64,000 nt of DNA from positions 310,001 to 374,000 of the forward strand of contig NZ_JAROCB010000005.1 in the NCBI RefSeq assembly GCF_030433675.1, read 5' to 3'. This DNA comes from Leifsonia virtsii. Lineage in GTDB: Bacteria; Actinomycetota; Actinomycetes; Actinomycetales; Microbacteriaceae. The notes under the pieces were generated by a model that was given only the letters and a program-made list of their open reading frames with translations, had not been told where the DNA came from and searched no databases. The translations under genes and the position numbers were made by a program. Shown here piece by piece: positions 9,619 through 26,003 of this stretch. Position 1 is the stretch's first letter. Each line of letters opens with the position of its first letter.

Positions 9619-12267
9619 TCAGTCGCGCTGCCCGGCCGCCTTCCGCCGCCGCACGGCCACCAGCCCGGCTCCGCCGACCAGCAGCGCGAGGGCCAGCAGC
9701 AGCGGGGCCGTGCTCACGTCCGCTCCCGTCGACGCGAGCGCCGCGGCGGGGTCGCCCGCCGAGGCACCGGATGCCGCGACCGTGAAGGCGGCGCTGGCCA
9801 CGACCGTGCCGCCGACGGACGCCGTGACCGTGTGCTGGCCGGGCGCGACCGCCGGGACGGCGAAAGTGAAGGTCAGCGTCCCGTCCGGAGCCGCCGTCGC
9901 CGTGCCGAGTGCGACCGGGGTGGAGTGGAACTCGAACGACACCCGCGTGCCCGTGGCGAAGTGGTCGCCGCGGACCGTGATGCGGTCGCCGGCGATTCCG
10001 GAGCCGAGCGACAGCGCGAGCGCGGCCGCCGGGGTCGGCGGCGTCGAGACGCCCTGACCGCCGAGGGCCAGGTCGCAGGCGATCCGGCCGCTGTAGAGGG
10101 CGTGGCCCTCGGTGGCGCTTCCGGGGCCGGCTCCGTAGACGCCGTCGTCCGACCACAGCGCCTCGCGCGTGCCGTCGCTGCAGGTGGAGGCGGGTGCGAG
10201 TGCGAAGCCCTCGAGGTTGTCCACAGGGAGGCCGGCGGGCTTGGCGTAGACCACCTGCGAGACGATCGCGCCCGTCCCGTCCACCTTCAGCACCGCCGAG
10301 GTGACGCCGCAGGTGTTGTCGCATAGGGCCCAGATGCGCTGCGTCGCCGCGTCGAACTGCACGTCCATGACGTGACCCATGCCGGTGTCCACCACGGCCA
10401 CGCGGTGGAACGAGTGGTCGCTGTTCAACGCGTAGGCGTACAGCTTGCCGTCGTTCTCCAGGGCCGCGAAGAACAGGCCGCTGCCGTGCTGCGGATAGTC
10501 CGCCGGGCGGTACGTTCTGCCGGTGGACTGGTCGACGAAGCCGTTCGCGGTCAGGTAGCTGTCGGGCACGAAGGTGACTCCCTCGAAGCCGAGGTTCGCC
10601 TCCGTCTTGTTGCCCGCGTGCAGCTCCGGGAACTCGGTGGTGAGGTCCCACTGGTCGGTCGCGACCAGCTGCGTCGCCGACGAGGACGGGTCGATGCGCA
10701 GGATGGAGTTGAGCGGGATGGTGTTGGCCGCGTTGTTGCGCTCGGTGGTGACGTAGAGCGCGCCGTCCGGGCCGACGGTCAGACCCTCGGAGTCGGGCTG
10801 GTTCGTCGCCGTGTCCGTGCTGCCCGGGAAGAAGATCTGCTTGCCCGCGCCCCAGCCGTTCGCCGTGTCGGCGACCCACAGGCCGCCCTGCTTCACCATC
10901 CGGAACACCCAGCTCTTGTTCTTGACGCTGTAGAGCACGTTCGGGTCGGCGGGGTCGAAGACCAGGCCGCTGACGTCGCGGCCCTCGGGGCCCGTGGTGG
11001 TCTCCCACGCGCATTGCTGGTCCGCGACCGCGACCGAGCCGCTGCCCGGCCACGCGATCGGCGTGAGCGCGGACGCGGGGAGCGTGCCGGTGCCGGACGG
11101 CGCCTCGGGCTGGCAGGTGAGCGTCGGGCCGCCGCCGTTCCCGCCGCCGCCCGGGTTGGTGAGCACGTTCTGGCAGGCGGTCGCGTTGGAGGCGCCGAAG
11201 CTCTTGGCGGCGACCGAGGCGAACGCGCCAGTGCCGTCCGGGCAGCGGGCGTAGGCGCCGGCGCCGAAGCCGTTCGTCTCGTCCGCCCCGGCCTCGCCCG
11301 CGGTGTAGTCCACCGAGTCCACCAGCGTGCCCGCCGTGCCGCCAGCGCCGTCCGGGAGGTAGAGCCGCACGCCGTCGCCGCCGCTGCCGAGGCCCTTGGT
11401 GGAGCCGAAGTAGACGTAGCCGTGCGCCGGGACGACTGAGGTCGCGGTGCCGTCGGCCAGCTTCGCGGCGAACGGCGCGGGCGTCGCAGTGCTGCTGTCG
11501 ACCTGCAGCCAGCCGCTGATGTCGACGTCGGTCGAGCCGCTGTTGAACAGCTCGATCGCGTCGGTCACCGGGGTGGCGGTGTTGTCCGAGGACACCTCGT
11601 TGATGTGGACGTTCGTCCAGTCGGGAGCGGCCGGCGCGAACCGGCTCGTGCCCGGCGATCCGATGTCGCCGCTCGCCGAAGTCCACGAGGCCTCCGCGTC
11701 GCCCACGGTGGAGAGCTGCCACTGCGACGCGTCGTTCAAGCCGAGCGCTGCGTCGGTCGCCGGCACGCCGGAGCGGCCCTGCGTGCGCGGGCCCTTCACG
11801 GTTCCCGTGCCCTGGTCGTTGTAGGTGAGCCTGTCGACCAGGTTCGCGACCGCGTCGGGACCGTCGAACAGGTTGATCTCGTCGGCGCGCCCGAGCGTGG
11901 CCGTGTTGCCGCCGAGAACCTTCACCCCGGCGCCGAGCGACCACTCGGTGCGGAACGCGGCAGCCGTCGACTCGGTGACGATCGCGGACTCGCCGGGCGC
12001 CAGCGTCCCGAGCGAGTCGAGGGCGACCGTGCCGGGCGTCCTGCTGTCGTCGTCGAACGACCAGCCCGTCAGGCTGATCGGGGTCCTTCCGAGGTTGGTG
12101 AACTCGATGAACTCGCCGCCGGTGGTGCCGGGGCTGTACATCCACTCGGTGATGCGGACGTCGGGTGCTGCCGCGGCCTGGGCGGCCGTCGGGAGGGCGA
12201 ACGCCAGGGTCCCGGCGGTCGCAGTGGCGGCGAGGGCCGCCACGGCTCGGGTTCTGAGAAGTCTCAT
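9619..12267 (-). CDS. Secreted lamin-tail / esterase-like-phytase surface protein with LAXTG sorting signal
   Basis: An 882-residue exported protein. It has a Sec signal (MRLLRTRAVAALAATATAG to about residue 33, AQAAAA), then two lamin-tail-domain-like beta modules (VRITEWMYSPGTTGGEFIEF and VHINEVSSDNTATPVTDAIE). A Gly/Asn-rich linker follows, then a beta-propeller esterase-like phytase region (DVSGLVFDPADPNVLYSVKN, EGLTVGPDGALYVTTER, YPQHGSGLFFAALE). An Ig/filamin-like module follows (GSGIAGDRITVRGDHFATGT). The end is LASTGADVS, a hydrophobic segment and RRRK, the LAXTG-type signal used by class E sortases. A cell-wall-anchored phosphatase or adhesin is the likely role. It is monocistronic. 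Confidence 0.85.
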   Translation of the reverse strand: MRLLRTRAVAALAATATAGTLAFALPTAAQAAAAPDVRITEWMYSPGTTGGEFIEFTNLGRTPISLTGWSFDDDSRTPGTVALDSLGTLAPGESAIVTESTAAAFRTEWSLGAGVKVLGGNTATLGRADEINLFDGPDAVANLVDRLTYNDQGTGTVKGPRTQGRSGVPATDAALGLNDASQWQLSTVGDAEASWTSASGDIGSPGTSRFAPAAPDWTNVHINEVSSDNTATPVTDAIELFNSGSTDVDISGWLQVDSSTATPAPFAAKLADGTATSVVPAHGYVYFGSTKGLGSGGDGVRLYLPDGAGGTAGTLVDSVDYTAGEAGADETNGFGAGAYARCPDGTGAFASVAAKSFGASNATACQNVLTNPGGGGNGGGPTLTCQPEAPSGTGTLPASALTPIAWPGSGSVAVADQQCAWETTTGPEGRDVSGLVFDPADPNVLYSVKNKSWVFRMVKQGGLWVADTANGWGAGKQIFFPGSTDTATNQPDSEGLTVGPDGALYVTTERNNAANTIPLNSILRIDPSSSATQLVATDQWDLTTEFPELHAGNKTEANLGFEGVTFVPDSYLTANGFVDQSTGRTYRPADYPQHGSGLFFAALENDGKLYAYALNSDHSFHRVAVVDTGMGHVMDVQFDAATQRIWALCDNTCGVTSAVLKVDGTGAIVSQVVYAKPAGLPVDNLEGFALAPASTCSDGTREALWSDDGVYGAGPGSATEGHALYSGRIACDLALGGQGVSTPPTPAAALALSLGSGIAGDRITVRGDHFATGTRVSFEFHSTPVALGTATAAPDGTLTFTFAVPAVAPGQHTVTASVGGTVVASAAFTVAASGASAGDPAAALASTGADVSTAPLLLALALLVGGAGLVAVRRRKAAGQRD

Positions 12268-12339: not shown

Positions 12340-13089
12340 TCAGTGCGACCGCTGAGCGACCACGGCCTGCCGCACCACCGCGGCGTCGTGCCTGCGGCGG
12401 AACAGCCACAGCACGTCGCGGCCGAACGACTCCAGCAGCAGTGCGAGCGCCAGCGCGACGAGCAGCGCCGCGGGGCTGGGAGCCGCACCGGAGGATGCCA
12501 GGGCGAGCGCGATGCCGGCCACAGCGGTCACGACCTTGCGCCAGTAGCGGGCGGGGAGGGTGCGGTCGAGCCAGGGCAGCATCCACCCGGCGGCGACGAA
12601 CGCGTACCGCAGCAGTCCGATCGCGAGCACCCACGGGCCGAAGAGCCCGGAGACGTGGATGCTGAGCACCAGCAGCAGGAAAGCGTCCACCTCCATGTCG
12701 AAGCGGGCGCCGAGGGCACTGACCGAGCGGGTGCGGCGGGCGACCCAGCCGTCGACCGCGTCGAGAGCGAGCGCGGGCACGACGACGGCGACCAGGAAGC
12801 CGGGGGAGAGCGGCCCCGCGAACGAGCCCGCGACGAGCCCTGTGATCAGCCCGACCAGCGAGGAGCGCACGGCGGTGACCGCGTTCGCGGCGCCGAACCG
12901 CGTGGCGCCGGAACGCACCAGGCCGCGGAGCAGCAGCGCGAAGGAGACGAGGAGGTAGGCCACGAGTGCCGCCCATCCCACGACCGACGGGACGACGGCC
13001 CTGCTCGCCCCCGCGAGCGTCTGCCCGGCGAGGGCGAGCGCGGCTCCGCCCGCCGACCAGCCGATCGCCTCGAAGTGAACTCTTTCCAC
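12340..13089 (-). CDS. CDP-alcohol phosphatidyltransferase family membrane protein
   Basis: A 249-residue integral membrane enzyme with about six to seven hydrophobic segments. The complete family motif is present: D110-xx-D113-G114-xx-A117-R118-x8-G127-xxx-D131-xxx-D135. These enzymes displace CMP from a CDP-activated alcohol to join a phospho group to a second alcohol, making phospholipids or phosphoglycans. It is divergent from the pterin/glycosyl cluster with an 83-bp gap, and I infer it belongs to that pathway, perhaps building its lipid or phospho anchor. Acceptor and donor cannot be read from the sequence. Confidence 0.9.
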
Positions 13090-13114
13090 GCCTGCCTCGT
13101 GTTCCCGGGTACGA

Positions 13115-13142
13115 CCCCTTCGCTGTGTAATACGAGAAGGGG
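13115..13142. promoter_or_regulatory. Inverted repeat in the divergent promoter of the pterin/glycosyl cluster
   Basis: CCCCTTC (13115-13121) and GAAGGGG (13136-13142) are separated by 14 bases containing TGTAATACG, a possible -10 element for the rightward operon. It is the only symmetric element in the 83-bp divergent space, so it is a candidate operator or mRNA leader hairpin. Confidence 0.35.
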
Positions 13143-13172
13143 GCGCCGCAGGTTCACGCGGAGGGAGACGAC

Positions 13173-14150
13173 GTGCGGGAGGTCACAGCGTTCTGGACGG
13201 AGCGGCCGGGCGCCGGCGCGCTCCGCACCGAGGCGCTGCGCGCACCCGCCGCGGGAGAGGTCCTGGTCCGGACGCTGCACACGGGCATCAGCCGCGGCAC
13301 GGAGACGACGGTGTTCGGCGGCCGGGTTCCGCCCAGCGAGTACGAGCGGATGCGGGCGCCGTTCCAGGAGGGCGACTTCCCCGGCCCGGTGAAGTACGGC
13401 TACCTCAACGTCGGCCGCGTGCAGGAGGGGCTGGAGGCGCTGCTCGGCCGGGTCGTCTTCACCCTGTACCCGCACCAGTCGGCGTTCGTCGTCCCGGCAG
13501 ACGCCGTCATCCCGGTGCCGGACGACGTGCCGGCCCGGCGCGCCGTGCTGGCGGGCGCCGTCGAGACCGCCGTCAACATCCTGTGGGACGCGGCACCGCT
13601 TCTCGGCGATCGGGTCACGGTGATCGGCGCGGGGATGATCGGGTGCTGCGTCGCCGGGCTGGCCCGCGGCCTGCCCGGCGCGCGCGTGACGCTGGTGGAC
13701 ATCGAGCCGGGCCGCCGCGCCGTCGCCGGCCGCCTGGGGGTGGGCTTCGCCGACCCGGACGAGGCGCCACGCGACCAGGACGTCGTCGTGAACACGAGCG
13801 GGTCGGAGGACGGCCTGCGACTGGCCCTCCGGATCGCCGTCGACGAGGGCGAGATCGTCGAGGCGAGCTGGTACGGCGACCGGCCGGTGACGCTCCCGCT
13901 CGGCGGCGACTTCCACTCCCGGCGGCTGAGCATCCGGTCGAGCCAGGTGGGTGCGGTGTCGCCGCGGAGGCGCGACCGGCGGAGCACGTCCGACCGGCTG
14001 GCGCTGGCTCTGGACCTGCTGCGGGACCCGGCCTTCGATGCGCTGCTCACGGGCTCCTCGTCGTGGCGGGAGCTGCCGGAGACGATGGGCGCGCTCGCCG
14101 CCGGGCAGCGGGATGCGCTCTGCCACACGCTCGACTGGAGGGATGCCTGA
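13173..14150 (+). CDS. Zinc-type alcohol dehydrogenase-like oxidoreductase
   Basis: A 325-residue medium-chain dehydrogenase/reductase. The N-terminal GroES-like part shows [17 protein letters not shown], and the Rossmann fold begins [20 protein letters not shown] with the NAD-selective acid at VDIEP. It is shorter than typical ADHs and lacks the usual Cys-His catalytic zinc set in its expected contexts, so oxidation of a sugar or polyol carbon is possible but the substrate is unknown. It starts at GTG 13173. It is the first gene of a seven-gene operon and ends in a TGATG overlap with the pterin-synthase-like gene. Confidence 0.85.
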
Positions 14151-14545
14151 TGCCGTACACGGTGACCGTCCGCGACCACATGATGGTCGCGCACAGCTTC
14201 ACGGGGGAGGCGTTCGGGCCCGCGCAGCGGCTGCACGGCGCCACGTTCGTCGTCGACGCGACCTTCGGCGCGGACGAGCTGGACGCCGACGGCGTCGTGG
14301 TCGACATCGGCCGGGCGGCCGCGGCGCTCGCCGAGATCACCGGGGCCCTGACCTACCGCAACCTGGACGAGCTGCCGGAGTTCGCAGGCCGGAACACGAC
14401 GACGGAGGTGCTCTGCCGGACCATCGCCGACCGGCTCGCCGATCGGGTGGCGGCGGGCGACCTCGGTGGCGGGGCCGTCGACTCGATCGCGGTCACCCTG
14501 CACGAGTCGCACATCGCGTGGGCGAGCTACACGAGGTCGCTGTGA
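14150..14545 (+). CDS. 6-pyruvoyl-tetrahydropterin synthase / QueD-family homologue
   Basis: A 131-residue member of the PTPS/6-carboxytetrahydropterin synthase T-fold family, which normally acts on dihydroneopterin triphosphate. Recognisable parts are the first-strand His (MVAHSF, H15), the His-Gly segment (LHGATF, H29), [17 protein letters not shown] and the closing [13 protein letters not shown] with the substrate-anchoring Glu. Two things are odd. The third zinc His of the usual HGH is A31, and there is no catalytic Cys between H15 and H29. H10 might replace a ligand. The chemistry is therefore probably not standard. It overlaps the genes on both sides. Confidence 0.85.
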
Positions 14546-15606
14546 GCGGACGTCCCGTCGTCGTCTTCGCGGTCCCGGACGGGATCGACGACCCCGCACG
14601 CGTGAGCGGCGGCAACGTCTACGACCGGCGCCTGGCGGAGAGCCTGCGGCCGGACGGCTGGGAGGTCCGGCTGCTTCCTGTGACGGATGCCCCCGCGGCG
14701 CTCGAGACCGCGCTCGCCGGGGTGTCCGACGGCGCCCTGGTGCTCGTCGACGGGCTGCTCGTCCAGCGTGAGCCCGCGGCCCTCCCCGCCCAGAGCGGCC
14801 GACTGCGTTTCGTCGTGCTCGCGCACATGCCTCCGCCGGAGGACGGCCCGGGCGTCCGCGAGGCGTTCCGGTCCGCGCGGCGGATCGTCGCCACCAGTGC
14901 GTGGACGCGGTCGGAGCTGATCGCGCAGGATGCCGCGGAGCCCGCGCGCATCGTCGTCGCGCACCCCGGCACGGACGCGGCGCCGGCGTCCCGGCCGTCG
15001 GCGGCCGGCGGCAGGCTGCTGTGCGTCGGCGTGGTCGCCCCGCACAAGGGGCAGGACGTGCTGGTGGCGGCCCTCGCCGCCGCTCGGGACGTACCGGGGT
15101 GGACGTGCACGATCGCCGGTTCGACCGCGACGGAACCGGGGTTCGTCGCGGAACTGCATGCCGCGGTCGCTGCGGAGGGGCTCGGCGACCGCATCCGGTT
15201 CGCGGGCGTGCTCACCGGATCCGGCCTCGGCGACGCCTACGCGGGGGCCGACCTCCTGGTCGGGCCGTCGCGCAGCGAGAGCTACGGCATGGCGGTGGCG
15301 GAGGCGCTGGCGCGCGGTATCCCGGTCGTCGCGTCCGCGGTCGGCGGCATCCCGGAGGCGATCGCCGGCGGTCGCGGCGCGGTCACCGTGCCGCCGGGCG
15401 ACGCCTGGGCGCTGGAGCGTGTGCTCCGGCGCTGGTGGGCGAGCGCGGAGTGGCGCGCCGAGCTGGCCACGGCCGCGCGGGACGCGCGGGCCTCCCGTCC
15501 TGGCTGGGCGGACACGGCCGCGACGGTCGGGCGCGCCCTGCGGGAGGTCGCGGCCGAGGCCCCGGCCGCGCATCCGGGACCGGTGGGAACGGCGGCGCGA
15601 TCGTGA
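14542..15606 (+). CDS. GT4-family glycosyltransferase
   Basis: A 354-residue GT-B retaining glycosyltransferase. The N-terminal acceptor domain has the [13 protein letters not shown] glycine loop. The C-terminal donor domain has [20 protein letters not shown] and the EX7E motif ([20 protein letters not shown]), where the nucleotide sugar binds. It lacks membrane segments, so it acts in the cytoplasm or at the membrane face. The GTG start overlaps the pterin-synthase-like stop as GTGA. It likely glycosylates the product of the neighbouring enzymes. Confidence 0.92.
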
Positions 15607-16421
15607 GCGGCGTCATCGAGGTCAGCAGCGACTGGCTGGCCCTCCGGGAGGCGGAGGACGCCGCCGCGCGCTCGGCCGCGCTCGCGGGCGCCGCGGCCGC
15701 GCTGCTGCCGGCAGGGCCCGTCACCGTGCACGACCTCGGCAGCGGCACCGGGTCGATGGCGCGGTGGCTGGCGCCGTGGCTGCCCGGACCGCAGACCTGG
15801 GTGCTGCACGACTGGAACGCCGACCTCACCGCGCAGGCCGCCGCCCGCGGCATCCCCTGCGACCGCGAGGGCAGGCCCGCGACGCTGCGCCCGAGCGTCG
15901 AGCCGCTGCACGAGCTGACCGCCGCCGACCTCCACGGTGCCTCGCTGGTCACGGCGTCCGCCCTGCTCGACGTTCTCACCGCCGAGGAGGCGCACGCCAT
16001 CGTCGACGCCTGCGTGGCGGCTCGGGCTCCCGCGCTGCTCGCGCTCAGCGTGACGGGGGAGGTCGCGCTGCGGCCCCGGCATCCACTCGACCGCCGCGTG
16101 GCGGAGGCGTTCAACGCGCACCAGCGCCGGGAGGTCGACGGCCGCCGGCTGCTCGGTCCGTACGCGGGCCGCATCGTGGAGGGGCTGTTCCGGCTGGCCG
16201 GCTGGAACGTCCGCCGGGCGATCACGACCTGGCGGCTCTCCGGCCGCGACCCGCAGCTGCTCAGCGAGTGGTTCGAGGGCCGGCTGGCGGCGGCGGAGGA
16301 GCAGGAGCCGCCCCTCCGGAGCGACGCCGCGGCCTACCGCGGACTGCGCCGGTCGCAGCAGCGCCGGGGCGAGCTCTCCGCGGTGGTCTACCACCTCGAC
16401 CTGCTGGCGTGGCCGCGATGA
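15603..16421 (+). CDS. SAM-dependent class I methyltransferase-like protein
   Basis: A 272-residue Rossmann methyltransferase. The SAM-binding motif I is VTVHDLGSGTGSMARWL at about residues 37-53. The acidic residue at the end of strand 2 is in LHDWNADL, and SLVTASALLDVLTAEEAHAIV follows. The C-terminal third has YHLDLLAWPR and many Arg residues. Target unknown; in this operon it would methylate a sugar or the heterocycle. The GTG start overlaps the glycosyltransferase stop (GTGA), and its own stop overlaps the next ATG (ATGA). Confidence 0.86.
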   Translation: MSGVIEVSSDWLALREAEDAAARSAALAGAAAALLPAGPVTVHDLGSGTGSMARWLAPWLPGPQTWVLHDWNADLTAQAAARGIPCDREGRPATLRPSVEPLHELTAADLHGASLVTASALLDVLTAEEAHAIVDACVAARAPALLALSVTGEVALRPRHPLDRRVAEAFNAHQRREVDGRRLLGPYAGRIVEGLFRLAGWNVRRAITTWRLSGRDPQLLSEWFEGRLAAAEEQEPPLRSDAAAYRGLRRSQQRRGELSAVVYHLDLLAWPR

Positions 16422-17485
16422 CCGTTCGGGAGGTGACCTCGAAAGCCGGGCGGATCGTCCGCTCCCGGCGGTTCCTGCTCGTCGCACGGTTCGTCGTCGC
16501 CGGCGCCGCACTCGCGGCCGTCGTGTGGCGCGTCGGCGCGGGCCCGTTCCTCCACGGCCTGCTCAGCCTGCGGCCGGGGGTCGTCGTCGCCGCAGTCGCC
16601 CTCGCCTTCGTGGCCACCGCCGCCGCCGCGTGGCGGTGGCGCCTCGTCGCGCGCGGTCTCGGCATCGAGGTCGCCTGGCCGCGCGCCGTCGGGATGTACT
16701 ACCGCTCGCAGTTCCTCAACACCGTGCTGCCCGGCGGCGTGCTCGGCGACGTGCACCGCGCGGTCGACCACGGCCGCAGCACCGACCGCCCCGGCCGGGC
16801 TGCGCAGGCCGTGGCTGGGGAGCGGGTCGCGGGCCAGCTGGTGCAGCTCGTCATCGCGGTGGCCGTGCTGCTCGCCGGCGGCGCGGCGTTCGGCGGGGTG
16901 CTGTTCCCGGCGATCGGCGGCGTGCTCGCCGTCGTGACCGTCGTCCTCACGGCCGCGGCCCTCCTGAGCCCCCGGATGCGACGCCTGCTGCGGGCAGGCG
17001 TCCACCGGCTGCGCACCGACCGCCGCGCCGCGATCGCCCTCGCGCAGATCGCCGCCGCCTCGGTGGTCGTCGTCGCGTGCCACGTCGCGACCGTCGTCGT
17101 CGCGTCGGCCGCGGTCGGCGTCCGCCTGCAGCCGGACCGGATGCTGACGCTCGCGGTCGTCGTGCTGTGCGCCGCGTCCATCCCGGTGAACATCGGCGGC
17201 TGGGGCCCGCGCGAGGGCGTCGCCGCCTGGGCGTTCGCCGTCGGCGGCTCCACCGCCTCCCTCGGCGTCTCCGCCGCCACCCTCGTCGGCGTGCTCGCCG
17301 TCGTCTCCGTCGTCCCGGGCGTGCTCGCGGCGGCACTCGTCCCTCTGATCGTGAGGAGGACCTCCCGTGTCCGAGCGTCCCTACGTGACCGTCAACTGCG
17401 CCATCTCCCTCGACGGGTACCTCGACTCGGCCGACCCGCCGCGGCTGGCGCTGTCGAACGCGGAGGACTTCGACCGGGTGGATGA
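16418..17485 (+). CDS. Lysylphosphatidylglycerol-synthase TM / flippase-like (UPF0104) membrane protein
   Basis: A 355-residue multi-pass membrane protein with about eight segments. It contains the family hallmarks MYYRSQFLNTVLPGGVLGDV, ERVAGQLVQLV and SIPVNIGGWGPREGVAAWAF. Such domains occur in MprF and in many glycolipid or secondary-metabolite clusters, where they are thought to move lipid-linked molecules. The ATG overlaps the methyltransferase stop. The frame runs 119 bases into the RibD-type gene, and its last ~40 residues are an Arg-rich tail (RTSRVRASLRDRQLRHLPRR) read in a second frame of that gene. The tail may be real or may reflect loss of an earlier stop. Confidence 0.85.
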   Translation: MTVREVTSKAGRIVRSRRFLLVARFVVAGAALAAVVWRVGAGPFLHGLLSLRPGVVVAAVALAFVATAAAAWRWRLVARGLGIEVAWPRAVGMYYRSQFLNTVLPGGVLGDVHRAVDHGRSTDRPGRAAQAVAGERVAGQLVQLVIAVAVLLAGGAAFGGVLFPAIGGVLAVVTVVLTAAALLSPRMRRLLRAGVHRLRTDRRAAIALAQIAAASVVVVACHVATVVVASAAVGVRLQPDRMLTLAVVVLCAASIPVNIGGWGPREGVAAWAFAVGGSTASLGVSAATLVGVLAVVSVVPGVLAAALVPLIVRRTSRVRASLRDRQLRHLPRRVPRLGRPAAAGAVERGGLRPGG

Positions 17486-18113
17486 GCTGCGCGCCCGCAG
17501 CGACGTCATCCTGGTCGGTGCGCGCACCGTCCGCCGCGACAACCCGCGGCTGCTGGTCCGCAGCGCCGAGCGGCGCGGCCGGCGCGAGGCGTCGGGCGCC
17601 GAGCGCTCGCCGTGGAAGGCGACGGTGACGGCGACGGGCGACCTCGATCCGCGGGCGGCGTTCTTCACCGAGGGCGACTCGCGCAAGCTGGTCTACTGCC
17701 CGCGCCAGGAGGCCAGGCGCATCGGCCGCCGCCTGGGCGAGGTCGCCGAGGTGGTCGGGCTCGGCACGGAGGTCGTCATGGCCGACCTGCTCGACGACCT
17801 CGGCGGTCGCGGCGTGCGGCGGCTGATGGTCGAGGGCGGCGGGGTGACCCTGACGCAGTTCCTCGCCGAGGGGCTCGTGGACGAGCTGGCCGTCGCCGTC
17901 GCGCCCTTCTTCGTGGGGGACAGGCGTGCCCCGCGCTTCGTCGGCGACGCGGCGTTCCCCTGGTCGGCCGAGCGCCGTGCGGAGCTCGTGGAGGTGCGCC
18001 CGATCGGGGACGTCGTCCTGCTCCGGTACGCCCTCTCCGACCGGTTCGAGCTCGTACCCGATACCGCGGCGGCCGACGCCCGCCGCGGCCGGAGCACGCG
18101 GGAGGGCGCGTGA
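17367..18113 (+). CDS. RibD C-terminal / dihydrofolate-reductase-like pyrimidine reductase
   Basis: A 248-residue stand-alone reductase of the RibD C-terminal family, without the deaminase half. It shows VNCAISLDGYLDSADP, VILVGARTVRRDNPRLL and LMVEGGGVTLTQFL with VDELAVAVAPFFVG, the NADPH- and pyrimidine-binding motifs. In riboflavin synthesis this domain reduces the ribosyl side chain of a GTP-derived pyrimidine. A solitary copy beside a pterin-synthase homologue suggests a related heterocycle. The start is GTG 17367 with a perfect AGGAGGA at 17354-17360, six bases upstream, although it lies within the flippase-like frame. Confidence 0.88.
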   Translation: MSERPYVTVNCAISLDGYLDSADPPRLALSNAEDFDRVDELRARSDVILVGARTVRRDNPRLLVRSAERRGRREASGAERSPWKATVTATGDLDPRAAFFTEGDSRKLVYCPRQEARRIGRRLGEVAEVVGLGTEVVMADLLDDLGGRGVRRLMVEGGGVTLTQFLAEGLVDELAVAVAPFFVGDRRAPRFVGDAAFPWSAERRAELVEVRPIGDVVLLRYALSDRFELVPDTAAADARRGRSTREGA

Positions 18114-19735
18114 CGGCCCGGACGCGCCGGGTCGTCGCCCGGGTGCTCGACGTGCTCGCCGCCGTCGTGGTGGTGCTCGCGTGCCTCGCGCCCGGCCTCA
18201 TCGCGTCCGACTCCGTGCTCGCGCTCGTGCGCATCCCGCTGGAGGCTGTGCTGGCGCTGGTGCTGCTCCTCCTGCTGCCGTGGCGCCCGGCCCGCCGCAT
18301 CGTGGCCGTCCTGCTGGCGCTCGCGCTCGTCGTCGCCGCGCTGCTCGCGGCCCTCGACCGCGTGTTCGCATCGACGGTCGGCCGTCCGTTCGACCCGGTC
18401 GGCGGGTGGAAGGAACTGGCCGACGGCTACGGCGTGGTCAGCGACTCCACCGGGCCGGTCGGGGCCGCGGCCCTCGTCGTCCTGGTCGGGATCGCGGCGC
18501 TCGCCGCCGTCGCGCTGCTGGCGGCCGCACTGCTGCGCGTGACGCGGCTGCTCGTCCCGCGACGGCGACCTGCGCTCATCGGGGCCGCCGGCGTCACCGC
18601 GGGCTGGCTCGTGGTCGCCCTCGTCGGAGCCCAGCTGGTGCCGGGCGAGCCGGTCGCCGCAGCGGACACGGTGTCCACCGGGATCGCGAAGACGCGCGAG
18701 GCGGTCGAGACCGTCGGCGCGCAGGCCGCGCTGGCGCGGCAGTCGGGCTCCGACCCGTATGCGCAGGTCCCCGCATCCGACCTGCTCACGGGGTTACGCG
18801 GGAAGGACGTGATCGTCGCCTTCGTGGAGAGCTACGGCCAGGTCGCCGTCCAGGGGACGAGCTTCTCGCCCGGGGTGGACGCGGTGCTGCGGGACGGCAC
18901 GGCACAGCTGACCGCCGAGGGCTACTCCCAGCGCAGCGCCTTCCTCACCTCGTCGACCTTCGGCGGCATCAGCTGGCTCGCCCACTCGACCCTGCAGACC
19001 GGTCTCTGGATCGACTCGCAGCAGAAGTACGACCAGGTCACCGCGGGCGACCGCTTCACCCTGAGCGCGGCGTTCCGCAAGGCGGGCTGGCGCACCGTGA
19101 GCGACGTGCCCTCCGACACGAAACCGTGGCCGGTCGGCCGCTCGTTCTACCACTACGACGAGTTGCTGAACGCGACCGACGTCGGCTACGAGGGCCCGAA
19201 GTTCAGCTACGCCCGCATCCCGGACCAGTACACGCTCGCCCACTTCCAGCGGCAAGAGCTGGCGAGACCGCACGCGCCGGTGATGGCGGAGATCGACCTC
19301 GTCTCCTCGCACACCCCGTGGACGCCGCTCCCGCAGGTGGTGCCGTGGGACTCGATCGGCGACGGCTCCGTCTACGACCCGCAGCCCGCGCAGGGCCTTC
19401 CGCCGAGCGTGGTGTGGCGCGACCCGAAGCACGTGCAGCAGCTGTACGGCGAGTCGGTGCAGTACTCCCTCCGCTCGCTGTTCTCCTTCCTCGGCGCCGT
19501 CGACGACCCGAACCTCGTGCTGGTCGTACTCGGCGACCACCAGCCGGCCACCGTGGTGAGCGGCGCGGGCGCGAACCACGACGTCCCGATCAGCATCGTC
19601 GCGAAGGACCCGGCCGTGATCGACCGCATCTCCTCCTGGAAGTGGGAGAGTGGGATGCTGCCGTCGCCGTCCGCGCCGGTGTGGCGGATGGACGCGTTCC
19701 GCGACCGCTTCCTCTCCGCCTTCGGGCCGGGGTGA
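18110..19735 (+). CDS. Membrane-anchored sulfatase/LtaS-like alkaline phosphatase superfamily enzyme
   Basis: A 541-residue protein with four to five N-terminal membrane segments (to about residue 185), then an extracytoplasmic sulfatase-fold domain. Likely metal and nucleophile sites are VAFVESYGQ, the Thr/Ser region SSTFGGISWLAHSTL, EIDLVSSHTPW and VVLGDHQPA. The architecture matches lipoteichoic-acid synthase and phosphoethanolamine or phosphoglycerol transferases, so a phospho-group transfer on the outer face is likely. GTG overlaps the RibD-type stop (GTGA). It is the last gene of the coupled run and would modify the exported product. Confidence 0.85.
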   Translation: MTARTRRVVARVLDVLAAVVVVLACLAPGLIASDSVLALVRIPLEAVLALVLLLLLPWRPARRIVAVLLALALVVAALLAALDRVFASTVGRPFDPVGGWKELADGYGVVSDSTGPVGAAALVVLVGIAALAAVALLAAALLRVTRLLVPRRRPALIGAAGVTAGWLVVALVGAQLVPGEPVAAADTVSTGIAKTREAVETVGAQAALARQSGSDPYAQVPASDLLTGLRGKDVIVAFVESYGQVAVQGTSFSPGVDAVLRDGTAQLTAEGYSQRSAFLTSSTFGGISWLAHSTLQTGLWIDSQQKYDQVTAGDRFTLSAAFRKAGWRTVSDVPSDTKPWPVGRSFYHYDELLNATDVGYEGPKFSYARIPDQYTLAHFQRQELARPHAPVMAEIDLVSSHTPWTPLPQVVPWDSIGDGSVYDPQPAQGLPPSVVWRDPKHVQQLYGESVQYSLRSLFSFLGAVDDPNLVLVVLGDHQPATVVSGAGANHDVPISIVAKDPAVIDRISSWKWESGMLPSPSAPVWRMDAFRDRFLSAFGPG

Positions 19736-20303: not shown

Positions 20304-23300
20304 ATGTCCCACGATCTGCCCCGCTTTCCGCTCCCGCCGGTCCCCGAGGACCAGCGCGACTCCGCTGTCGCGGCGTGGAGCGAGCCCGTCGACGTCCGCA
20401 CCTACGAGCCGGGGGAGCCGGGGCGTCTTCCCGCGTTCCTGGAGTCCCGGGTCTACCAGGGGTCGTCGGGCCGGGTGTATCCCCTGCCGTTCATCGAATC
20501 CGTCAGCCATGACGCGACCGTCCGCACCTGGCAGGCGCTGCACCTGGAGAACGAGTACCTCCGGCTGGTGATCCTGCCGGAACTGGGCGGACGGGTGCAC
20601 ATCGCGGTCGACAAGACCACCGGGCTCGACTTCTTCTACCGCAACGACGTGATCAAACCGGCCCTGGTAGGCCTCGCCGGGCCGTGGATCTCCGGCGGGA
20701 TCGAGTTCAACTGGCCGCAGCACCACCGGCCGGCCACGTTCCTCCCGATGGACTGGACGATCGAACGGGAGGACGACGGCGCGGTCACTGTGTGGTGCTC
20801 CGACCATGACCCGTTCGCGCGCATGAAGGGGATGCACGGCATCCGCCTCCGTCCGGGCTCGGCCGTGCTCGAGGCGCGGGTGCGGCTGTACAACCGCACC
20901 GCCGTCACCCAGACGTTCCTCTGGTGGGCGAACGTCGCCGTGCGGGTGCACGAGGACTACCAGTCGTTCTTCCCGGCGGACGTGCACGTGGTCGCGGACC
21001 ACGCGAAGCGCGCGGCGACCGCCTTCCCCGCCGCCGACCGGCCCTACTACGGCATCGACTACCCGGCTCGGGCCGATCGGAGCAGCCCGGCCTTCGTCGC
21101 GGACGACGCGGACCGCCTCGACTGGTACCGCAACATCCCGGTCCCCACTTCGTACATGTGTGTGGCGAGCGAAGACGACTTCTTCGGCGGCTACGACCAC
21201 TCCACCGGGCTCGGCTTCGCCCACGTCGCCGACCACCGGATCGCGCCGGGGAAGAAGCAGTGGACCTGGGGCAACGCGCCGTTCGGGCGCGCCTGGGATG
21301 CCAACCTCGGCGACGACGGCAGCGCCTACGTGGAGCTGATGGCAGGCGTCTACACCGACAACCAGCCCGACTTCTCGTACCTGGCGCCGGGGGAGACCAA
21401 GACGTTCAGCCAGTTCTGGTTCCCCTTCCACGGCATCGGTCCGCTGACGCAGGCTTCCACCGACGTGGCGCTCAGCATCACGACCGAAGACGAGGGCACC
21501 GGGAGGACGGCGCGCGTCGGCGTCGCCGTCACGCGGGTGCACGAGCGGCTCGACCTGGCGCTGCTCGACGAGGACGGTACCACGCTCTGGCAGCAGCGCG
21601 TCGCCGTCGCACCCGGGCGTCCCGTCACCGCCGACGTTCCCGTCCCGGCGACGGGAGAACTGGATCTGGTGGCGTCCGTGCACGGCGGCGAGCTGCTGCG
21701 CGCCTCCACTCGGTTCCGCGATGCGGCGCCGGACGGCTTTGAGACCGCGACGGAGCCGCCGGCGCCGATGGAGATCGCCTCGATCGACGAGCTCTACCTC
21801 ACGGGAGTGCACCTCGCCCAGTACCGCCACGCGACGCGGTCGCCCGAGCCGTACTGGGAGGAGGCTCTGCGGCGCGACCCCGCCGACTCCCGCAGCAACG
21901 TCGCCATCGCCTCGCTCCGCCTCGCGGCGGGACGCCTCGCCGACGCGGAGGAGCACCTGCGGACGGCGCTTCGGCGGCAGACCCACCGCAACCCGAATCC
22001 GGCCGACGGCGAGGCGTCGTACCTGCTCGGTGTCGTCCTCACGGAGCTCGGCCGGGACGAGGACGCGGACGACGCCTTCGGCAAGGCCGCTTGGAACTAT
22101 GCCTGGCGGGCGCCGTCGGGGCTCGCACGTGCGCGCATCGCGGCGCGCTCCGGCCGCTGGGACGACGCTCTCCGCCTGGCGGAGGAGGCGTCGCGCCTCG
22201 ACGCGGACAGCCTCCAGCTGGCGGCGGTGCGGGTCGTGGCGCTGCGTGCGCTCGGCCGCGGCGGCCAGGCGGATGCGGTGCTGGCGAACGCACGCGCGCT
22301 CGATCCCCTCGACGCCTGGCTCAACGACCTCGCCGGCCTGCCGCCGGCCACCGACGCCCAGACCCTTCGCGACGTCGCCGCCGAATACCGTTCCCTCGGC
22401 CGCACCGGCGACGCGCTGCGCGTTCTGGACGATGCGGCGACCGCGGCCGTGCGGCGGCCGGTGCCCGGCGCAGGCGACCCGCTCGCGCTCATCCACTACG
22501 CCCGCGCGGAGCTGCTGGAGCAGTCGGGGCGGGTGGACGAGGCCGCCGGAGCGCTGCGGGACGCCCGCGAGGTCTCGGCCGCGCGCTGCTTCGCCGGCAG
22601 CGGTGCGGACGCCGCCATGCTCGAACGCCGCGCTGCCGCGACCGGGGACCCCCGCGCGCACGCGCTCCTCGGGCACTGGCTCTACTTCCAGCGCCGCTAC
22701 CGCGACGCCGTCCATCACCTGGAGGCCGCGGTCGCCGGGCAGCCGGACGACGCGGTCGCTCTCCGGGGACTGGGACTGGCGGCGTACAACGTCGAGGGCG
22801 ACCCTCGGAAGGCCGTCGCGCTGTACCGGCGTGCCGTCGCGGCGGCGCCGGACGACGCGAAGCTGCGCTACGAGGCCGACCAGTTGGCCCGGCGGGCGGG
22901 TGAGACTCCGGAGCGGCGGCTGGAGGCCCTCGCCGACGCAGGCGTTCTGATCGCGGCCCGCGACGACCTGGCGCTCGCATATGCGGAGCTCCTCGTGCTG
23001 GTCGGCCGCCACGACGAGGCGATCCGGCTGATGGCTTCCCGGCGGTTCAGTCCCTGGGAGGGTGGAGAGGGTGAGGCGATCCGGATCTGGACGCTGGCCC
23101 AGCGGGCGGCGGCCGGGCACGCGCTCGCCCGCGGCGACGCGAGGGCTGCGGTGGAGGCGCTGGAGGCCGCCGTCTACGTGCCGGAGACACTCGGCGAGGC
23201 GCCGCATCCGCTCGCCAACCGTTCCGACCTGCTGCTCGCCCTCGGCGATGCCCGCCGCGCGGCGGGCGACGAGTCCGGCGCAGCGGCGGCGTGGCGGGCC

Positions 23301-23690
23301 GCGGCCACGAGCGCCGGCGACTTCACGACCATGTCCGCCGTGCCGCACTCGCCGATGACGTACTACTCCATCGTCGCGGCCCGGCGGCTCGACGATGCGG
23401 AGCGATCGGAACGCCTCACGGCCGAGCTGGCCGTCTATGTCGAGCAGAAGCGCACCGAGCGCGGAAGCATCGACTACTTCGCGACCTCCCTCCCGACCAT
23501 GCTGATCTTCCGGGAGGACGTCGACCGGACGCACAGCGACCTGGTCGACGTCATGGAGGCCCAGCTGGCTCTCCTGCGCGGCGACCGTACGTCGGCGCAG
23601 CGCGTGCTGGGGGCCTTGGAGGCGCGAGACCCGGCCGATGCCCTGGTGAGGGACCTTCTCGCCGAAGCGGAGCCCGCGGCCGTCGCCTGA
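20304..23690 (+). CDS. DUF5107 domain protein with C-terminal tetratricopeptide repeats
   Basis: An 1128-residue cytoplasmic protein. The first half (about 1-510) is the beta-rich DUF5107 region, with LENEYLRLVILPELGGRVHI, WISGGIEFNWPQHH, FLWWANVAVRVHEDY and QFWFPFHGIG. It resembles galactose-mutarotase/glycosidase beta-sandwiches. From about residue 515 (EPYWEEALRRDPADSRSNVA) to about 1100 come Ala-rich helical TPR-like repeats. Proteins of this design often sit in carbohydrate loci and may be glycoside-acting enzymes; the mechanism is unknown to me. It converges on the AraC gene that faces the galactoside operon, which suggests shared control. Confidence 0.88.
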   Translation: MSHDLPRFPLPPVPEDQRDSAVAAWSEPVDVRTYEPGEPGRLPAFLESRVYQGSSGRVYPLPFIESVSHDATVRTWQALHLENEYLRLVILPELGGRVHIAVDKTTGLDFFYRNDVIKPALVGLAGPWISGGIEFNWPQHHRPATFLPMDWTIEREDDGAVTVWCSDHDPFARMKGMHGIRLRPGSAVLEARVRLYNRTAVTQTFLWWANVAVRVHEDYQSFFPADVHVVADHAKRAATAFPAADRPYYGIDYPARADRSSPAFVADDADRLDWYRNIPVPTSYMCVASEDDFFGGYDHSTGLGFAHVADHRIAPGKKQWTWGNAPFGRAWDANLGDDGSAYVELMAGVYTDNQPDFSYLAPGETKTFSQFWFPFHGIGPLTQASTDVALSITTEDEGTGRTARVGVAVTRVHERLDLALLDEDGTTLWQQRVAVAPGRPVTADVPVPATGELDLVASVHGGELLRASTRFRDAAPDGFETATEPPAPMEIASIDELYLTGVHLAQYRHATRSPEPYWEEALRRDPADSRSNVAIASLRLAAGRLADAEEHLRTALRRQTHRNPNPADGEASYLLGVVLTELGRDEDADDAFGKAAWNYAWRAPSGLARARIAARSGRWDDALRLAEEASRLDADSLQLAAVRVVALRALGRGGQADAVLANARALDPLDAWLNDLAGLPPATDAQTLRDVAAEYRSLGRTGDALRVLDDAATAAVRRPVPGAGDPLALIHYARAELLEQSGRVDEAAGALRDAREVSAARCFAGSGADAAMLERRAAATGDPRAHALLGHWLYFQRRYRDAVHHLEAAVAGQPDDAVALRGLGLAAYNVEGDPRKAVALYRRAVAAAPDDAKLRYEADQLARRAGETPERRLEALADAGVLIAARDDLALAYAELLVLVGRHDEAIRLMASRRFSPWEGGEGEAIRIWTLAQRAAAGHALARGDARAAVEALEAAVYVPETLGEAPHPLANRSDLLLALGDARRAAGDESGAAAAWRAAATSAGDFTTMSAVPHSPMTYYSIVAARRLDDAERSERLTAELAVYVEQKRTERGSIDYFATSLPTMLIFREDVDRTHSDLVDVMEAQLALLRGDRTSAQRVLGALEARDPADALVRDLLAEAEPAAVA

Positions 23691-24599
23691 TCAGCCCTTG
23701 TGCTGCTCCCGGTATTCGCGTGCCGTCATCCCGTGCACCTTCTTGAACTGGCGTGCGAAGTAGAAGGAGTCCGGGTAGCCCACCTCCGCCGCGATCGCGG
23801 CGACCGTGGCGGAGGTGGTGTCGAGCAGCTCCCGGGCGCGCCCCATCCGCAGCATCGTCTGGTATTGCAGCACGGGGTAGCCGACGTGGCGTTTGAACAG
23901 CGCGGAGAAGTGCGACGTGCTCAGGGAGGCCATCGCGGCGAGCTCCGGGACGGTCACGCGGTCGGCGATGTGCGCCCGCAGGTACTCCATGGCGTGCTCG
24001 ATCACGTCGCCGGCGTCGTCGGCGCGCGAGCGCTCCGAGGCGAGCAGAGTGAGTGCGTGCCAGGCTGCGCCGGCGGCGGCGTTGAGGCTCGTGGTCGTGC
24101 TGTCGCGCTCCATCCACGAGAGCACCTCGGACATCAGCGAGACGATCGGGTACAGGTCGCGAGGGCGCCGGACGGGGTTCTCGGCGGTCATCCCCGCGCC
24201 GGCCAGGAACGCCTCCGCCTCCGGGCTCGCCGCGTGGAACCACCACAGCGTCCATGGGTCCTCGGTGTCGGCCCCGTAGGCGTGCGCCTGGCGGGGCGGG
24301 AGCACGACGACCTGACCGCGGTGCACGGGGAATCGTCCAGCTTCGGTCTCGCACCAACCGGAGCCGTCGACGCACGCCATCACAATGGCCTGCCCGATCG
24401 GGGTGGCCCGCCGTCGCCCGTGCGAGTCGGCCCGGGGGAAGTATCCGCAGTCGGTCACCGCCAGGCGGGCCGTTCCGGGCTGGTTCAGGAACTCCCTCAC
24501 GCGCGGCCGCGGGAGGACGAGCATGCGCTGGCCGGGGAAGCCGTCGGGGATGAGCACTCGACGATCATGAGCCATGGTCGTCGGAATGTCCAGATACAC
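23691..24599 (-). CDS. AraC family transcriptional regulator with cupin sugar-sensing domain
   Basis: A 302-residue regulator. An N-terminal AraC cupin covers about residues 20-150 (GQVVVLPPRQAHAYGADTED, PWTLWWFHA). Two helix-turn-helix units follow at the C-terminus (TVPELAAMASLSTSHFSALF and TVAAIAAEVGYPDSFYFARQ). It is divergent from the galactoside importer operon (gap 114 bp) and is the probable activator of it, as for RafR/MsmR-type proteins. An internal ATG at 24575 is an alternative start. Confidence 0.92.
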   Translation of the reverse strand: MYLDIPTTMAHDRRVLIPDGFPGQRMLVLPRPRVREFLNQPGTARLAVTDCGYFPRADSHGRRRATPIGQAIVMACVDGSGWCETEAGRFPVHRGQVVVLPPRQAHAYGADTEDPWTLWWFHAASPEAEAFLAGAGMTAENPVRRPRDLYPIVSLMSEVLSWMERDSTTTSLNAAAGAAWHALTLLASERSRADDAGDVIEHAMEYLRAHIADRVTVPELAAMASLSTSHFSALFKRHVGYPVLQYQTMLRMGRARELLDTTSATVAAIAAEVGYPDSFYFARQFKKVHGMTAREYREQHKG

Positions 24600-24713
24600 C
24601 GCAGCTTTCTGCTACGGCGCCCCACCACGGCGACATACCGTGGATCAGGTTCGGCCATAGGATCTTGCCTCGGCCGAGCGTCCTGGCGATCACCTCACGA
24701 AATGGAGTCGAAG

Positions 24714-26003
24714 ATGACCCGAAAGACCACCCGCTGGCTGGCGGCGTTCGGCAGCACTGTCGCCGCGACCGCGCTCCTCGCGGGTTGCGTCGCGACCTCG
24801 GGAGAGGCGCAGCAGACCAAGTCCGGGCCAGACGCTTCCGGCCCCCTGATCCTCCAGTCGCGCTTCACCGACGCCGAGAAGGGCGGCCTGGAGCAGCTGG
24901 TCAAGAACTTCAACGCGAAGGGCGAAGGCCAGGTGAAGGTGAACACGATCCCGACCAACACCTTCAACCAGCAGCTGCCCTCGTACCTGACGGCCAAGAA
25001 CCCGCCGGACGTGTACACCTGGTACGCCGGCCAGGCCACGCGCGACTTCGCCGACCAGGGCCAGCTGCTCGACCTCTCGAGCGTCTGGAAGGACCACGGC
25101 GGCGACTTCCCCGACGCGCTCAAGACCCTCAGCCAGGACTCGTCCGGCAAGGAGGTGTTCGTCCCGACCGGCTACTACTGGTGGGGCGTCTACTACTTCA
25201 AGAGCGACTTCGAGAAGCTCGGCATCACCCCGCCGAAGACCTGGGACGAGTTCCTCGCCGCCTCCGAGAAGATCAAGAGCCAAGGCGTGACGCCGTTCAC
25301 CGCCGGCCTGTCCGACAACGCCTGGCTCGCCTCCGCCTGGTTCGACTACCTCGACCTGCGGATCAACGGCGCCGACTTCCACCTGAAGCTGCTCTCCGGC
25401 AAGGAGAAGTACGACAGCCCCGAGGTGAGGAAGGTGTTCGCGGCCTTCAAGCAGGTGCTGCCGTACTTCGACCCCGCAGTGCTCGGCACGACGCAGAATC
25501 AGGCGATGAGCGACTTCTCGCAGGGCAAGGTCGCCATGTACCTGCTCGGCGCGTGGGCGCAGCCCTCCGTCCCCGCAGACAAGCAGAGCGACCTCGCGTT
25601 CTTCCCGTTCCCGACCATCGACCCGAAGATCCCGGCGGCCGAGGAGGGCCCGACCGACGGGTTCATCGCGAGTGCGAAGACCGATAAGCCGAACCTGACG
25701 AAGAAGTTCCTCGAGTACGTGGCGAGCCCCGAGGCGCAGAGCGAACTCGCCAAGAGCCAGCAAGGCACCTACCTCCCGGCGAGCACGAAGGCGACGGCGC
25801 AGCTGGACGCCCTGTCCACGCAGGGCAAGGAGCTGCTGGAGTCTGCGAAGCAGATCACGCAGTTCTACAACCGGGATGCCGGCGACGCCCAGCAGACCCC
25901 GGCCGACACCGCGCTGACCAGCTTCTTCGCGCATCCGGAGAACCTCGACCAGATCCTGAAGGACTGGGACGCGGCCGCCAAGAAGATCCGGGCGACTTCG
26001 TGA
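24714..26003 (+). CDS. Sugar ABC transporter substrate-binding lipoprotein (family 1)
   Basis: A 429-residue exported lipoprotein. The signal peptide ends in the lipobox LLAGC (Cys at about residue 24). The mature part has family-1 sugar-binding features: PLILQSRFTDAEKGGLEQLV, LTAKNPPDVYTWYAGQATRD, YYWWGVYYFKSDFEKLG and ALTSFFAHPENL. I chose ATG 24714 because GGAG at 24704-24707 is then correctly spaced; ATG 24702 is four codons earlier. TAGGAT at 24658-24663 may be the -10 box. It is followed by two permeases, a GH36 alpha-galactosidase and an epimerase, so the cargo is probably an alpha-galactoside such as melibiose or raffinose. Confidence 0.93.
   Translation: MTRKTTRWLAAFGSTVAATALLAGCVATSGEAQQTKSGPDASGPLILQSRFTDAEKGGLEQLVKNFNAKGEGQVKVNTIPTNTFNQQLPSYLTAKNPPDVYTWYAGQATRDFADQGQLLDLSSVWKDHGGDFPDALKTLSQDSSGKEVFVPTGYYWWGVYYFKSDFEKLGITPPKTWDEFLAASEKIKSQGVTPFTAGLSDNAWLASAWFDYLDLRINGADFHLKLLSGKEKYDSPEVRKVFAAFKQVLPYFDPAVLGTTQNQAMSDFSQGKVAMYLLGAWAQPSVPADKQSDLAFFPFPTIDPKIPAAEEGPTDGFIASAKTDKPNLTKKFLEYVASPEAQSELAKSQQGTYLPASTKATAQLDALSTQGKELLESAKQITQFYNRDAGDAQQTPADTALTSFFAHPENLDQILKDWDAAAKKIRATS

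Follow-up and report, generated by a model that had tools for sequence, protein, structure and literature searches.

What molecule is made by a gene set in which a PTPS-fold protein and a lone RibD_C reductase stand among a glycosyltransferase, a methyltransferase and membrane enzymes? This question is raised by positions 12340–19735 of the window, that is, the whole 64,000-nucleotide stretch of Leifsonia virtsii DNA analysed here. Among the papers listed by a literature search, which mostly did not reach subscription papers, none treated the cluster as a pathway.

Gene Organization of the Locus

The eight genes are open frames, and every junction lies where the original prediction had put it. 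First of all, one divergent gene on the minus strand (12340–13089; PF01066, 46.7 bits) encodes a CDP-alcohol phosphotransferase (CDPOH), and the other seven form a rightward chain on the plus strand. The chain starts with a medium-chain dehydrogenase (DH, 13173–14150), which scores 26 bits to ADH_zinc_N, below the cut-off of 31.8, and is joined through TGATG (14148) to the gene of a PTPS-fold protein of the SCO6650 kind (14150–14545; PF01242, 86.2 bits). After GTGA (14542) comes a GT4 glycosyltransferase (14542–15606; PF13692, 90.7 bits), and after a second GTGA (15603) a class I SAM-dependent methyltransferase (15603–16421), recognised by its predicted fold. ATGA (16418) then leads into a UPF0104/LPG_synthase_TM membrane protein (TM, 16418–17485; PF03706, 112.5 bits), whose gene overlaps by 119 bp that of the lone RibD_C reductase (17367–18113; PF01872, 137 bits), and the last GTGA (18110) opens the gene of an LtaS/sulfatase-like membrane enzyme (18110–19735), classified by family-level evidence. 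The families above their Pfam cut-offs in the window are CDP-OH_P_transf, PTPS, glycosyltransferase, LPG_synthase_TM and RibD_C.

Conservation among Actinomycetes

Gene clusters of this kind are widespread in actinobacteria, and the window holds the Microbacteriaceae-like form. Of 394 genomes sampled from the class, 57, that of L. virtsii included, carry a PTPS relative. The arrangement is far from a chance one: the identical eight-gene order recurs in all 15 further clusters taken from the genus and, of 137 other loci, in 6, each from Microbacteriaceae. The original prediction had depended on a gene order kept beyond close relatives, and such an order is seen, the DH-PTPS-GT4 core being contiguous in 129 of the 137 loci, across nine named orders. 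These loci are 57 plus 80 from two collections to which some species may be common; the second was limited to the top 80 among at least 580 relatives, two of the 57 belong to one genome, and the counts include loci cut by contig ends. Frames shorter than 61 aa or with internal stops were excluded from the protein sets, so that the tree of GTP cyclohydrolase II (GCHII) covers 101 of 103 cluster enzymes, and that of the core 136 of 138 rows, the window included.

DH and GT4 each occur in 136 of the 137 loci (for DH, PTPS and GT4 the range is 136–137), and the methyltransferase is found near 113 of these cores. That this near-universal core is soluble, while the LtaS-like gene lies near only 49 of 137, favours another reading, namely a glycosylated pyrimidine or pterin that stays soluble inside the cell and acts as cofactor or protectant, like mycothiol or glycosylated pterins, with the membrane genes as neighbours or exporters; three loci (L082, L083 and L085), in which tblastn recovered the three core genes only, point the same way. 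However, CDPOH lies near 118 and TM near 125 of the 137 cores, and we hold a soluble product to be possible but well short of probable. A lipid-coupled product is the reading followed below.

The PTPS-Fold Protein

The closest solved structure to the window protein is Streptomyces coelicolor SCO6650 (PDB 3d7j), matched over the full length (E 2.7e-50, residues 3–131), and the protein belongs to the SCO6650 subfamily. It had been called a PTPS/QueD homologue; membership of the PTPS family stands, but an ordinary enzyme of this kind it is not, as the zinc and catalytic residues are lost. Among 138 copies, the window included, the third zinc His is gone: HGH is absent from all 135 readable copies (HGA in 134, HGV in one, three unreadable). 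At what we take to be the positions of the PTPS catalytic residues, no Cys occurs within residues 1–45 in 137 of 138 copies, a few of them truncated, and the Asp-His before the NLD motif is absent from 133 readable copies, which mostly have x-Tyr. The C-terminal Glu, kept in 138 copies (one judged by eye), is common to QueD/PTPS (COG0720), as is the Pfam family.

Therefore a queuosine or 7-deazapurine pathway with a QueD homologue is extremely improbable: the protein does score to NCBIfam QueD, but at 41 bits against a cut-off of 89.25; besides the residue losses, inspection by eye of the families that recur as neighbours showed no QueE, QueC or FolE.

Two Front Ends Proposed for One Nucleotide

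A GCHII partner, sought at the suggestion of the original prediction, lies near 103 of the 137 cores. None is in the window cluster, as had been noted, and a genome-wide search placed the only GCHII of the genome on another contig, as a RibBA fusion with DHBP synthase that carries Tyr at the switch position, presumably Tyr105 in E. coli numbering. This residue is Tyr in all 22 GCHIIs read outside clusters, and non-Tyr in 62 of the 103 cluster GCHIIs and in L204. Cluster GCHIIs with Tyr go with RibD_C and have no creatininase-family hydrolase nearby (41/41, those of L140 and L150 among them); for those with Met, His, Leu or Gln the creatininase is present in 63/63, after two edge cases were resolved (in L058 the creatininase lies about 13 kb from PTPS, and in L075 the GCHII, with Leu, lies just beyond the fetched stretch). 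In L056, L071 and L073 neither gene is in the fetched stretches, and the single GCHII of each genome has Tyr.

S. coelicolor SCO6655, whose switch residue we take to be Met120, is reportedly a GCHII with the odd activity of releasing the formyl compound FAPy. The Tyr enzymes of relatives would make APy (2,5-diamino-6-ribosylamino-4(3H)-pyrimidinone 5′-phosphate), the ring-opened GTP nucleotide with which the pathway is proposed to start, in one step; on the other route GCHII would give FAPy, which the creatininase-family enzyme would deformylate. That is to say, both front ends should yield APy. On the GCHII tree the switch state changes once, so the association of Tyr and creatininase is one event and is not countable as many independent ones. 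A tree with 99 cluster GCHIIs as one clade (L084 and L086 left out) gave an AU p of 0.036, a weak rejection of a group defined after the tree was seen, so that at least two recruitments of GCHII to the cluster are probable. In L084 a single gene encodes GCHII and RibD_C, and in L086 the two lie in one 452-aa frame. A front-end swap in Actinoplanes inside the creatininase clade, suggested by a quick core tree (three changes), was dropped because keeping the creatininase loci together improves the tree by 47 log units (AU p 0.896).

The creatininase of one Streptomyces-type member matches MftE best in NCBIfam (134.6 bits, cut-off 172), and its match to ArfB is weak (40.3 bits, cut-off 180). The archaeal start of riboflavin and F420 synthesis (ArfA, ArfB, APy reductase) and bacterial BrbF would have in common with the cluster the making of FAPy, its deformylation by a creatininase-family enzyme and reduction before deamination; Sinorhizobium BrbF is a creatininase-family enzyme reported to deformylate in this chemistry (PMC9478397). 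In contrast to the archaeal route, the cluster has GCHII in place of GCHIII, a creatininase nearer MftE than ArfB, and a glycosyltransferase and membrane enzymes as neighbours instead of lumazine enzymes. An accessory module for riboflavin or F420, raising the supply of flavin precursors, would share the chemistry of GCHII and RibD_C with riboflavin synthesis, but it is very unlikely: neither lumazine synthase nor riboflavin synthase was recognised when the recurrent neighbour families were inspected by eye, no role of the core genes in such a module is known, and the core persists in loci without GCHII.

Comparison with Streptomyces Coelicolor

In toxoflavin-type pathways GCHII, a RibD-like reductase and a methyltransferase build a pyrimidine-derived heterocycle, and since these three recur together here, a secreted secondary metabolite of such a type has to be considered. 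The original prediction had mentioned a PTPS homologue of S. coelicolor near a GCHII gene, and this fits the region SCO6649–SCO6655: SCO6650 is the full-length match of the window PTPS protein, and SCO6655 is listed as a GCHII in PMC2853524, in a table whose genes mostly rise in stationary phase. The SCO6652 transcript, in PMC3610822, stands at log2 4.3 (48 h) and 4.1 (72 h) over the first mycelium. Both records suit a secreted metabolite; however, the reductase lacks a deaminase domain and the core spans nine orders, wider than expected for such a cluster, so this reading is unlikely. As for gene order, Streptomyces-type loci carry DH-PTPS-GT4-methyltransferase-TM-creatininase-GCHII, an order that would agree with the five genes SCO6650 to SCO6655 if equivalence is judged from the tag numbers; the window has RibD_C and the LtaS-like gene in place of creatininase and GCHII.

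Soluble Enzymes of the Cluster

For the envelope-directed pathway that we favour, the soluble enzymes would supply the middle steps. DH contains GxGxxG (alignment A4), no Cys/His set for a catalytic zinc was recognised in it by eye, and its best NCBIfam match is BchC (48 bits, cut-off 291). GT4 matches the exopolysaccharide enzyme EpsE best (83.9 bits, cut-off 400), though it also scores to MshA (71.9 bits, cut-off 462.5), BshA and SenB, which favours a soluble product; in three loci it is fused to the methyltransferase. To the latter, profile searches assigned no Pfam or NCBIfam family; its AlphaFold2 model (pLDDT 95) has a class I SAM-methyltransferase fold, and nearly all of the 50 Foldseek matches listed carry the title of a methyltransferase or a mycolic cyclopropane synthase, with TM-scores (query) of 0.42–0.60 among them.

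The RibD_C reductase matches the archaeal APy reductase TIGR01508 best in NCBIfam (135.4 bits, under the cut-off of 186.45), and its profile ranks 5xux, 6p8c and 2azn, structures of archaeal APy reductase type, ahead of bacterial RibD. No nearby copy exists in 44 of 62 non-Tyr loci, and when ten such genomes were searched with the Streptomyces cluster reductase, nine had nothing at 1e-15 and the tenth a single weak match (38% identity); hence the reduction may be dispensable. The L. virtsii genome itself has 15 RibD_C matches, that is, many paralogues.

Membrane and Envelope Proteins

The original prediction saw cell-envelope-type machinery in the set, and the membrane genes do travel with the core. 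The motif DxxDGxxARx8GxxxDxxxD, which we take to be that of CDP-alcohol phosphotransferases, does not vary across the 16 sequences of alignment A5. CDPOH adjoins DH in 103 of 137 loci (88 divergent, 15 codirectional) and is fused to the LtaS-like protein in 16 loci by a same-stop rule, or 18 by a looser overlap rule; both facts speak against a soluble product, and the fusions hint at an envelope role. The LtaS-like family resembles LtaS and LtaP, the lipoteichoic acid enzymes, in membrane helices, in travelling with a CDP-alcohol phosphotransferase and, at family level, in a putative sulfatase-type domain, but its sequence similarity to them is very low: of 15 aligned members, 9 reach Pfam Sulfatase (PF00884) at E values up to 1 (best 8.6e-10), the window copy has no match to Sulfatase or any other Pfam family, and the family profile found one solved structure, LtaP (4uop), at a marginal E of 2.4e-4. 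The predicted model (pLDDT 80.5) has N-terminal helices and a C-terminal alpha/beta part.

Proposed Pathway and Its Meaning

From the observed gene set, its conservation, the co-distribution of the front ends, the fusions and the residue losses, we infer for the window a GTP-derived APy pathway leading to a lipid-coupled glycosylated product, a scheme which as a whole we put at about an even chance. So far as sequences can tell, a diaminopyrimidine nucleotide is the most plausible early intermediate; as to the pterin alternative for the predicted head, nothing in the data points to the making of such a ring. In the window lineage, whose cluster has neither GCHII nor creatininase, APy would most likely come from the housekeeping RibBA. 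The lone RibD_C would then convert the ribosyl into a ribityl chain, with the 2-amino group retained, and the zinc-less PTPS-fold protein may bind the 2-amino-4-oxopyrimidine and remodel it together with DH. GT4 would attach a sugar, methylation would fall to the methyltransferase, CDPOH would couple the product to a lipid, perhaps via the 5′-phosphate, the UPF0104 protein would carry it across the membrane, and outside the LtaS-like enzyme would transfer or trim the head group. In its strongest form, which is tentative and rather doubtful, the proposal is an undescribed class of actinomycete envelope lipid or glycoconjugate with a GTP-derived 2-amino-4-oxopyrimidine head (ribityl or ribosyl), which a zinc-less PTPS-fold enzyme would build by a new kind of chemistry, and with two front ends feeding one pathway.

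In summary, the orphan crystal structure of SCO6650 and the FAPy release said to be the activity of SCO6655 are joined in one gene set, which gives a pathway with predictable first steps and a product that would bear a sugar. If the two-front-end reading is true, FAPy formation in S. coelicolor gains a purpose, and an envelope-bound product would add a new kind of lipid or wall component to the group to which the main antibiotic producers belong.

Cluster in the Window

The eight genes at 12340–19735 were recovered as originally predicted, with each junction confirmed, in a window whose GC content runs from 0.67 to 0.77 (2-kb steps) and a genome of 4.2 Mb. Each assignment is backed by family searches, with three weak points: the medium-chain dehydrogenase (DH) falls under the Pfam cut-off, and neither the methyltransferase (MT) nor the LtaS/sulfatase-like membrane enzyme found a Pfam match of its own. 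A structure model and structure comparison give MT a predicted class I fold; Pfam Sulfatase is matched by 9/15 members of the LtaS-like family, the window copy being among the non-matching ones. The genes of the UPF0104/LPG_synthase_TM membrane protein (TM) and the lone reductase (RibD_C) overlap by 119 bp at 17367–17485. Among 15 further genus clusters, 6 have an overlap of precisely this length, 7 one of 4 bp and 2 none; the TM frame enters the reductase gene, probably ending in each case at an identical out-of-frame TGA within a conserved codon pair. The adjoining minus-strand gene (9619–12243) encodes a large protein with a Lamin Tail Domain and a phytase-like esterase domain, and 20304–26003 encodes a DUF5107 + TPR protein followed by a regulator of the AraC type and an extracellular solute-binding protein.

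Distribution and Gene Order

In the class, relatives of the PTPS-fold protein (SCO6650 kind; E ≤ 1e-8) are present in 57 of 394 genomes and 26 of 138 genera; in the genus, at E ≤ 1e-15, 16 of 28 genomes have them, the own genome being counted in both. A second, named collection held at least 580 relatives, of which the best 80 were taken, giving 137 loci (57 + 80). Within 9 kb of PTPS, these contain DH (136), the GT4 glycosyltransferase (136), TM (125), CDP-alcohol phosphotransferase (CDPOH, 118), MT (113), GTP cyclohydrolase II (GCHII, 103), RibD_C (76), creatininase (64) and the LtaS-like enzyme (49). The core DH-PTPS-GT4 is contiguous in 129/137; among the 75 contiguous cores from the named collection, 74 are spread over nine named orders, the remaining one being unplaced. 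The exact window order recurs in 6/137 loci and in all 15 further genus clusters, around which 18-kb stretches contained neither GCHII nor creatininase. The gene set is real and conserved; the literature search found no function for it.

In three divergent relatives (L082, L083, L085; PTPS 47–50% identical), tblastn found only DH, PTPS and GT4; this reduced set may be the pathway in its minimal form. Families named by eye also lie nearby: a second methyltransferase-like family ("community 12") in nine loci (L033, L038, L039, L042, L048, L060, L067, L072, L087), alongside it a methyltransferase-like family (4 loci) and one resembling SRPBCC (3 loci), and, 3′ of several Streptomyces-type clusters, an FAD-oxidoreductase-like and two saccharopine-dehydrogenase-like genes, 8–9 loci each (L044, L051, L059, L061, L065, L068, L069, L070, L074).

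PTPS Protein

Two of the three zinc histidines are kept in PTPS, the third being Ala/Val in 135/135 readable copies; the N-terminal part is without Cys in 137/138, and the C-terminal Glu is conserved in all 138 (pattern matching for 137, visual inspection for L124). Judging from these residues, the protein may bind a 2-amino-4-oxo ring and must do chemistry other than the usual. Subfamilies of COG0720 have been published, one of which, PTPS-V, is described as of unclear function (PMC5041015).

GCHII and Creatininase

The GCHII partner sought after the original prediction lies near most relatives' cores, but is absent from the window and from the surroundings of the eight named Microbacteriaceae cores. 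In the core tree, the window cluster belongs to a ten-row starred set in which eight rows carry Microbacteriaceae names, suggesting that the window comes from this family. The switch residue read here, Met120 in SCO6655 and Tyr105 in E. coli, is said to determine whether the GCHII product is 2,5-diamino-6-ribosylamino-4(3H)-pyrimidinone 5′-phosphate (APy) or its formyl precursor (FAPy). Non-Tyr enzymes (62 loci) are accompanied by creatininase in 61; the lone exception and one creatininase without GCHII are edge effects, and the corrected tally is 63/63. The 41 Tyr loci (39 plus L140 and L150, read separately) have creatininase in 0/41 and RibD_C in 41/41, and all 22 GCHIIs read outside clusters (17 + 5) are Tyr. 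On a simple reading, a GCHII that leaves the formyl group in place requires a partner enzyme to remove it, so that the FAPy-stopping enzyme would be paired with creatininase. In Sinorhizobium, this deformylation has been reported for an enzyme of the creatininase family (PMC9478397); against the deformylase reading, the one creatininase tested is nearest by score to MftE. Moreover, the GCHII tree contains one change of switch state, so the Tyr/creatininase link rests on one evolutionary event.

Forcing the cluster GCHIIs into a single clade gave AU p 0.036 (n = 99, L084 and L086 excluded, the group having been defined once the tree was known). Read literally, this value means two or more acquisitions of GCHII by the core, an argument for GTP as the starting point; we regard such a start as probable.

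Reductase and the Window Variant

GCHII and RibD_C form one gene in L084 and share one 452-aa frame in L086, which ties the two together as steps in one route. The cluster RibD_C resembles archaeal-type reductases acting before deamination, with a score under the curated cut-off. The window's genome has a single GCHII (a RibBA fusion with Tyr at the switch), one creatininase unlinked to the cluster and 15 RibD_C matches; most economically, housekeeping APy would feed the cluster RibD_C. RibD_C is absent nearby in 44/62 non-Tyr loci. When the Streptomyces cluster reductase was searched in ten such genomes, nine gave no match at 1e-15 and the tenth one weak match, all three positive-control genomes being recovered; the reduction step may not be universal.

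Envelope Link

CDPOH is divergent from DH in 88/137 loci and codirectional in 15/137. It is fused with the LtaS-like enzyme in 16 loci, which argues that the two act together; GT4 and MT are one gene in 3. From their neighbourhood, CDPOH and the LtaS-like enzyme may act on this pathway's product, and we give an envelope-bound product slightly less than an even chance.

Expression and Proposed Role

SCO6652, judged by its position to be the likely methyltransferase gene, reached log2 0.8, 4.3 and 4.1 at 24, 48 and 72 h relative to the first mycelium in one study (PMC3610822). Another tabulates SCO6655 among genes that anticorrelate with predicted flux, the majority of which are up in stationary phase (PMC2853524). 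These data suggest that the cluster is used late in Streptomyces. To our knowledge Microbacteriaceae do not sporulate, so its role cannot be spore-specific. The combined account, in which GTP would be converted through APy to a ribityl pyrimidine that is decorated with sugar and methyl groups and perhaps lipid-linked in the envelope, has in our view an even chance of being correct.
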